DNA of 41,131 nt from Gammaproteobacteria bacterium (GTDB lineage Bacteria > Pseudomonadota > Gammaproteobacteria > Ga0077536). Shown here in pieces: positions 2,584 through 27,673 of the stretch. A program made the translations under genes and the position numbers. Every line of letters starts with the position of its first letter. Position 1 is the stretch's first letter. The notes beneath the pieces are model-generated. The model was not told where the DNA came from, did not search any database, and was given only the letters and a program-made list of their open reading frames with translations. Location of the stretch: NCBI GenBank assembly GCA_019747795.1, contig JAIEQK010000060.1:1-41131 (forward strand), given 5' to 3'.

Positions 2584-3347
2584 GAACGCTCGCCGTCCTG
2601 CTGCTGGTGGTGAACGTCGGCCTCATCACCTGGCAGTATCGCGAACACATTCGCACGCTCGCGAGCGAGTACCGCGTGCAGCCGCCGCCGCCCCAGAACG
2701 CGGCCACGCTGAAGCTCCTCGCCGAACTCGAGACCCTGCCCGCGTCGCGTGACAAGCAGGAGGCGGAAGTGCCCGCCGCACCCGTCGCCGCCGAAGTGCA
2801 GGCCGACGTCGCGCCCGCGGACGTGTGCCTGGACGTCGGCCCCTTCGGCGACGCCGCCAGCCGCGACCAGGTGCGCGACTGGCTGCGCGACTACGTCGCG
2901 GCGAGCTACGCCAGGCGCGAGACCGTGCGCAAGAAGCAGTTCTTCTGGGTGTACATGGAACCGAGCACCGACGCCATCGCCCAGCAGAGCCTGGCGGAAC
3001 TGAAGGAGCGCGGTATCACCGATACGCTGCTCATACGTCGCGGCGAGATGAAGAATTCCATCTCCTTGGGCTTCTTCCGCTCCCAGGACTCCGTCAACCG
3101 CCGCCTGGCCGAGCTGAACGAAAAGGGCTACAAGCCCGTGGTCGTGCCACGCTTCGAGACCAGCGAACTCTACTGGCTCGCCGTGCGCTTAAGCCAGGAC
3201 ACCCCTGAAGCCCCCACCATCCCCGACACCCTGCTCGGCGCGAGCGCCAAGCAGAAGCCCATCGACTGCGCCGACCTCGTCACCGACACCGTCGCCGACG
3301 GCCCCGCCACCCCCACCGGCCCCCTGGTCGAAGGCCTCACGAACTAG
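2580..3347 (+). CDS. SPOR-domain-like protein with N-terminal membrane anchor
   Basis: GTG start overlapping the coaX stop; N-terminal hydrophobic segment (RTLAVLLLVVNVGLITW), Pro-rich linker, SPOR-like segment (CLDVGPFGDAASRDQVRDWL ... SLGFFRSQDSVNRRLAELNEKGYKPVV). Confidence 0.8.
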   Translation: MRTLAVLLLVVNVGLITWQYREHIRTLASEYRVQPPPPQNAATLKLLAELETLPASRDKQEAEVPAAPVAAEVQADVAPADVCLDVGPFGDAASRDQVRDWLRDYVAASYARRETVRKKQFFWVYMEPSTDAIAQQSLAELKERGITDTLLIRRGEMKNSISLGFFRSQDSVNRRLAELNEKGYKPVVVPRFETSELYWLAVRLSQDTPEAPTIPDTLLGASAKQKPIDCADLVTDTVADGPATPTGPLVEGLTN

Positions 3348-4965: not shown

Positions 4966-5391
4966 TTGCGTTACCCGCGACCGGAATACACCCCTCTTCA
5001 GACTCGGGCCGACGATTCCTTGCTGCGGGCCACCACGCTGACCGCGCGCGAGCGCCTGCCAGAGTTCGCCGTGTTACTGGCAGGGCCGTGCGAGGGCGCG
5101 CTCGCGAAGCTGCGTTTCGCCAGCAGTACCGAGCAGGTGGAGCAGCTGTGGGCGGAGGTCGCAGAAGTGCCAGGCGCCGAGGAACTCGGCGTGCGGTTGG
5201 TGACGCCGCCGGCCACGCATCACGATGTGATCGATCGCCTGCGTCATTGCCGCTTCGATGATGTCGAGGACTGGCAGGTGCGCGCCGCGGGCGGCAAGCT
5301 GCACGATTGCTTCACGCAGCGGGCGATGTCAGCCCTCGCGCGGCGTGTCGGGGTGACCTTGCCTGAGGAACTCGCGGCGCAGGAGGCGTAG
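4966..5391 (+). CDS. Hypothetical protein
   Basis: ORF of 141 aa with GC-rich third positions typical of the host; no recognised domain. Confidence 0.45.
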   Translation: MRYPRPEYTPLQTRADDSLLRATTLTARERLPEFAVLLAGPCEGALAKLRFASSTEQVEQLWAEVAEVPGAEELGVRLVTPPATHHDVIDRLRHCRFDDVEDWQVRAAGGKLHDCFTQRAMSALARRVGVTLPEELAAQEA

Positions 5392-26910: not shown

Positions 26911-27564
26911 TCAGCCGGCGGTCAGCGCGCGCACCTTGGCGAGTGTCTCTTCGGGCTCGGGCCTGACGGTGTAGTCCGGGTCGGCGTCCACCGCGCGGAT
27001 CACGCCGCCCTGATCGATCACGAAGCGCGCCGGCACGGGCAGCGTCCAGCTGTCCTCACCGTTGCAGGCCGGCAGGTCGATGCCGAATCCCTTGTAGATC
27101 GGAATCAACTCATCGGGCAGGCGGAAGCGCAGCCCGAGACTGGCGGTGTAGCCATTGCCGGCGTCGCGCAGGATGTCGAAGCCGAGCCCCTGCTTGGTGA
27201 TGACTTGTTCACCGAACTTCGCCAGCTGCGGTGAGACGGCGACCAAGGACGCGCCGAGGTCGGTCAGCGCGGGAAGAATCGCTTGCAGAGCTGACAGCTC
27301 CGCTACGCAGTAGGGTCACCAGTGGCCGCGGAATACCGTGAGCACCACCGGCCCGCGACCGAGCAGGTCGCCCGAACTGAGGGTCTCGCCGCGCGTATTG
27401 GGCAGGCTGAAGGCCGGCAGGCGCGCACCGACGCCCAGCACGCTGTCCAGGATGCCGGTGGCGCGCAGCGTGGCGGTGGCGCGTTGCATGGTCGCGTACT
27501 TGTCCGGCGGGATCATCTTCTCCGCGCCGGCGCGGATGGTGTCGAGCTGGGATTTCAGACTCAT
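26911..27564 (-). CDS. Peroxiredoxin-like (AhpC/TSA) protein with probable selenocysteine at an in-frame TGA (27318..27316); 217 aa if read through
   Basis: MSLKSQLDTIRAG...LLGRGPVVLTVFRGHW-[TGA]-PYCVAELSALQAILPALTDLGASLVAVSPQ...RFVIDQGGVIRAVDADPDYTVRPEPEE; the two halves are in the same frame and match the family on both sides of the TGA. Confidence 0.85.
27285..27303 (-). promoter_or_regulatory. Candidate bacterial SECIS hairpin
   Basis: mRNA GCGGAGCU-GUC-AGCUCUGC, 8-bp stem (one G-U), 3-nt loop starting with G, loop G 20 nt after the UGA. Confidence 0.65.
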
Positions 27565-27591
27565 GGCTTGGGCTCCGATGCGTCGTTTGGT

Positions 27592-27673
27592 TGTAGGTCG
27601 GACTTGCACCCGACATTCAATTTCCTTCGTTCGATGCCCTGGGAAGGAATGTCGGACTAAAGTCCGACCTACA
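27592..27673. repeat. Nested palindromic repeat (TGTAGGTCGGACTT... type), MITE/REP-like
   Basis: 27-nt arms 27592-27618 and 27647-27673 are inverted copies (23/27 identities); the right arm contains its own dyad GTCGGACT-AA-AGTCCGAC. Confidence 0.85.

Follow-up and report, generated by a model that had tools for sequence, protein, structure and literature searches.

We identified, in a gammaproteobacterial genome, a gene for a thioredoxin-fold, peroxiredoxin-like protein in which a UGA at codon 83 is predicted to be read as selenocysteine (Sec), giving a UxxC active site, a reading to which we assign a probability of about 0.96. The TGA almost certainly stands for Sec because the Sec machinery is present in the host genome and because dozens of relatives keep both the codon and an RNA hairpin. 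The gene lies in a 41,131-nucleotide stretch of DNA, hereafter the window, which lies on contig C302 of a 5.94-Mb genome assembled in 331 contigs and 99% complete.

A single gene spans an in-frame TGA

Direct reading of the sequence yielded one 217-codon gene with an ATG start at 27564 and a lone in-frame TGA at 27318-27316 in the context FRGHW-TGA-PYC, bearing out the coordinates and description given in the original prediction (Table 1). An ordinary ORF listing breaks the gene at this TGA, as had also been anticipated. In the read-through protein, a Pfam AhpC-TSA match (PF00578, residues 45–191, 1.5e-20) spans the TGA; no NCBIfam model scored above its cut-off for the same protein. A 134-codon open frame past the TGA would arise by chance in about 6% of cases in DNA of 69% GC, so that the length of the frame is unremarkable in itself and the case is carried by conservation. 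Between the peroxiredoxin-like (Prx-like) gene and an M48 peptidase gene, window positions 27592-27673 hold a 27-nt inverted repeat, 85% complementary with its arms 28 nt apart, that is REP-like in look.

Table 1 Features of the Prx-like gene in the window.
Feature	Position	Strand	Basis
Prx-like (AhpC/TSA) gene, predicted selenoprotein, 217 residues	26911..27564	-	direct sequence read, TGA stop included
In-frame TGA, codon 83, probably read as selenocysteine	27316..27318	-	homologue comparison
Cys86, second residue of UxxC	27307..27309	-	sequence; aligns with peroxidatic Cys of classical peroxiredoxins
bSECIS-like hairpin GCGGAGCUGUCAGCUCUGC	27285..27303	-	rule test and comparison among TGA genes
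Terminal TGA of the same gene	26913-26911	-	direct sequence read
GGAG, likely Shine-Dalgarno	27573..27576	-	8 nt before ATG

The TGA is shared by all close homologues

Position 83, at which homologues had been expected to carry either Cys or Sec, is TGA without exception among the 44 distinct close homologues examined, drawn from Rokuibacteriota and from Pseudomonadota both within and outside the window's order; distant homologues have TGC or TGT at the aligned codon. Since TGA counts per locus may include the gene's own stop (as at L039 and L040), residue 83 was read gene by gene. A search of the GTDB collection returned 14 loci. The eight closest, from Pseudomonadota and Rokuibacteriota and at 49–57% identity, each carry TGA; among the more distant loci, the nearest ones have TGC. 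Within the window's order, homologues were found in 24 of 36 genomes, every one with TGA at the aligned codon, and among Rokuibacteriota (the phylum of locus L019) a match with one TGA was present in 27 of 95 genomes, at the codon 83 position in each of the 12 that were read. The TGA form also occurs in Reyranellaceae and one other lineage, and class-wide and phylum-wide samples contained Cys forms (TGC/TGT), with the sole further TGA form in the one-contig genome G523. Dozens of independently assembled genomes, this last one among them, show the same codon, which in effect refutes a sequencing or assembly error in which the true codon is TGC or TGT; such an error would, moreover, not bring with it a hairpin that the Cys homologues lack.

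Two interrupted copies were also seen. In L067 (G314:C87), a second copy is split between residues 137 and 138 (2909-3319 and 5145-5372) by an insert of ~1.8 kb, in which a HigB/HigA-like toxin-antitoxin pair was recognised by eye; this is probably a disrupted copy. The L091 copy (G374:C78), with a frame break near residues 66-72 and its SECIS loop altered to GCUAC, is a decaying gene or an assembly error.

A bSECIS-like hairpin distinguishes TGA genes from Cys genes

Published bSECIS rules ask for a loop of 3–9 nt with G in its first two positions, a stem of 4–16 bp, a distance of 16–37 nt from the UGA and an MFE of at most -7.5 (PMC13188914). Near the TGA of the window gene, where such an element had been proposed as a check, a hairpin within these limits lies 19–20 nt downstream, with 8 bp, the loop GUC within UGUCA and an MFE of -11.0. 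Hairpins conforming to the rules were found in 33 of 34 TGA genes, as against 2 of 52 Cys genes. When folded as a single sequence, the window hairpin showed no excess stability over shuffled sequence (z about 0), and the case for it therefore rests on comparison.

Six core pairs are present in 43 of the 44 distinct TGA genes and in none of 53 Cys genes, and the loop reads UG[GU]NN in 43/44 of the former. The Ala codon in the 3' arm is GCT in 44/44 TGA genes, while its share of the 794 Ala codons elsewhere in these genes is 7% (58 codons). In pair 17-33, one partner is the third base of a Leu codon, which tracks an Ala/Val change on the opposite arm, giving C-G 33 times, U-A seven times, U-G three times and C-A never (Fisher p 4e-6, uncorrected for relatedness). 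Judged by these comparisons, the C-G to U-A change is compensatory and the putative hairpin is under synonymous constraint.

Phylogeny and selection argue against a decaying gene

In a maximum-likelihood tree, for which the trait position was coded as Cys, one branch (support 100/99) divided 32 TGA genes from 52 Cys genes, with one state change. The simplest reading, on a root that is unproven, is a single Cys-to-Sec switch, after which the TGA form would have spread by descent with some transfer. The window copy clusters with genes of G376, G377 and G379, whereas copies from its own genus group instead with a paralogue in the same genome (G000:C315:24826-25476, minus strand; L065:6827-7477), which is 64% identical and has the same Sec codon and hairpin; this placement suggests that the window copy is either an old duplicate or a gene gained from another member of the family.

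The rather long branch of the window copy (0.45) and the presence of a second copy in the genome could be taken to indicate a pseudogene, a decaying gene whose TGA arose by mutation of a Cys codon. However, the TGA is common to the 44 distinct homologues from two phyla, whose frames are intact, and the hairpin appears constrained at synonymous sites. Against its nearest homologue the protein is 68% identical before the TGA and 70% after it, and dN/dS in close pairs is 0.05-0.15 downstream of it, consistent with the original view that this region is intact and conserved; frameshifts past the TGA in relatives had been named as contrary evidence, and the frames there proved open and under purifying selection. 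Such selection does not fit a pseudogene, which we regard as very improbable, and a selenoprotein gene remains by far the better reading.

The host genome encodes the selenocysteine machinery

SelB was detected on contig C291 (3.5e-125, host genome search) with SelA directly upstream of selB, and ARAGORN placed a tRNA-Sec with anticodon tca 1.4 kb downstream, so that the three form one cluster, on a different contig from the window gene. SelD was found on C281 (6.1e-79), apparently cut by the contig end. All four of selA, selB, selC and selD, the absence of which would have spoken against Sec, are thus present. The best formate dehydrogenase match in the host genome has no in-frame stop.

A genome-wide reassignment of TGA (for example to Trp), or non-specific read-through without selenium, would also account for the frame staying open through the TGA. 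Against this, a TGA terminates the same gene, the aligned residue in homologues is Cys and never Trp, and tRNA-Sec and SelA/SelB are encoded in the genome; we consider this explanation less probable even than a pseudogene. For decoding as Sec, the UGA at codon 83 would be read by SelB and Sec-tRNA-Sec, directed by the hairpin 19–20 nt downstream in the same mRNA.

In four relatives (G373, G400, G382 and G383) the Prx-like gene (prx) sits beside tRNA-Sec, downstream of selB. The order in G373 is selA, selB, tRNA-Sec and prx, followed by a facing gene for a 744-aa oxidoreductase-SelD fusion, and G400 has the same arrangement except that selB and tRNA-Sec are separated by a beta-lactamase-family gene; an ORF resembling this gene occupies the equivalent place in the host genome. 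The fusion beside prx joins a pyridine nucleotide-disulphide oxidoreductase to SelD (L165:2087-4321 and L166:3473-5707; Pfam on L165), and fusion of SelD to an NADH dehydrogenase-like domain has precedent (PMC4561486). Three genomes have the beta-lactamase-family gene at this place between selB and tRNA-Sec (L166:7118-8356, L031:9512-10747 and L167 from 5734); it matches PF00144 (Pfam on L166), a family with no known role in Sec.

Among genomes carrying the TGA form, 10 of 11 have SelB, compared to 1 of 10 with the Cys form or none. Within the window's order the corresponding counts were 22/24 with the TGA form and 8/12 without it, a difference that is not significant (p 0.15), and this weak link suggests that other selenoproteins probably exist there. 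SelB was undetected in two genomes of the order and one Rokuibacteriota genome carrying the TGA form, possibly through fragmentation of these MAGs or through loss. G026 has SelB, yet carries the Cys form of the Prx-like gene.

Protein fold and proposed chemistry

AlphaFold returned a thioredoxin-fold model (mean pLDDT 94.3, pTM 0.91), and a Foldseek search with it placed BCP/AhpE peroxiredoxins and ResA-type oxidoreductases as the best matches among solved structures. In profile alignments, Cys86 pairs with the peroxidatic Cys of classical peroxiredoxins, and Sec83 with either the Ser/Thr of their S/TxxC motif or, in ResA, the first Cys, from which the protein appears most like a thioredoxin-type UxxC enzyme. 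The original placement of the TGA at the catalytic Cys consequently holds in the thioredoxin sense, as the first residue of CxxC, but not in the peroxiredoxin sense, in which the peroxidatic Cys aligns with Cys86.

A selenoprotein with true peroxiredoxin chemistry, in which Cys86 is peroxidatic and Sec83 assists or resolves, would agree with the Pfam AhpC-TSA assignment, the Foldseek matches to BCP/AhpE peroxiredoxins and the alignment of Cys86 with their peroxidatic Cys. The classical PxxxT/SxxC (or TxxU) motif is, however, absent from the window protein, Arg79 and Sec83 replacing its Pro and Thr so that Cys86 alone is common, and ResA-type CxxC proteins put their first, nucleophilic Cys opposite Sec. 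We therefore think this chemistry unlikely, and from motif and fold we infer that Sec acts as the nucleophile and Cys86 as the resolving residue.

With Sec as the nucleophile, the Sec83 selenolate would most likely attack a peroxide, endoperoxide or disulfide substrate; Cys86 would then resolve the intermediate as an Se-S bond, which glutathione or thioredoxin would reduce. Under selenium shortage, translation would be expected to halt after residue 82, leaving an inactive fragment. Endoperoxide reduction is known for animal relatives of the PRXL2 type, which have CxxC; for the substrate of the window enzyme this is a lead only.

Relationship to known families

UxxC peroxiredoxin-like selenoproteins were, as the original prediction stated, already known: a Prx-like UxxC family was described in 2005 from the Sargasso Sea (PMC1088965), had eight members and three Cys-to-Sec events in 2006 (PMC1794560), and appears again in 2026 as a Prx-like thiol:disulfide oxidoreductase, PF00578 (Table 1 of PMC13188914). 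On a comparison of features, the window gene is well supported as a new member of this family, whose named representative is WP_010940744.1: it belongs to PF00578, has Sec first in a thioredoxin-like UxxC and, like the family, has many Cys homologues. The holders named earlier in the published tables are mostly Deltaproteobacteria and marine metagenomes, whereas the window type occurs in Rokuibacteriota and, within Pseudomonadota, in one order and a few members outside it.

Other families share less. The cd02970 peroxiredoxin-like family has a selenoprotein form with UxxS (Table 1 of PMC13188914) in contrast to the UxxC of the window gene, whose Cys homologues in RefSeq plasmids are annotated 'peroxiredoxin-like family protein', compatible with cd02970 PRX_like2. 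The Sec-containing TxxU peroxiredoxin has the same AhpC/TSA fold, but its Sec lies at the opposite end of the motif. BCP/AhpE peroxiredoxins and ResA-type oxidoreductases (PDB 2cx3, 5epf, 1xvw and 3c71), the best profile and fold matches, share the thioredoxin-like fold at ~20% identity, and the window protein differs from them in ~40 extra N-terminal helical residues and in its UxxC.

Discussion

Ordinary gene callers split or truncate the gene here, and presumably do so in many relatives as well. The gene set, with its linked Sec cassette and one inferred switch, forms a clean Cys/Sec pair system in which to examine what Sec contributes at the nucleophile position of a Prx-like CxxC enzyme. 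We tentatively suggest that these genes form a single-origin, almost exclusively selenium-dependent Prx-like branch, which in part of its range is carried in a cassette selA-selB-selC-prxU beside the selD-oxidoreductase fusion, and that a main reason to keep Sec might there be the Prx-like protein instead of formate dehydrogenase. The same gene set is useful for asking what keeps the costly Sec trait where formate dehydrogenase is without a Sec codon.
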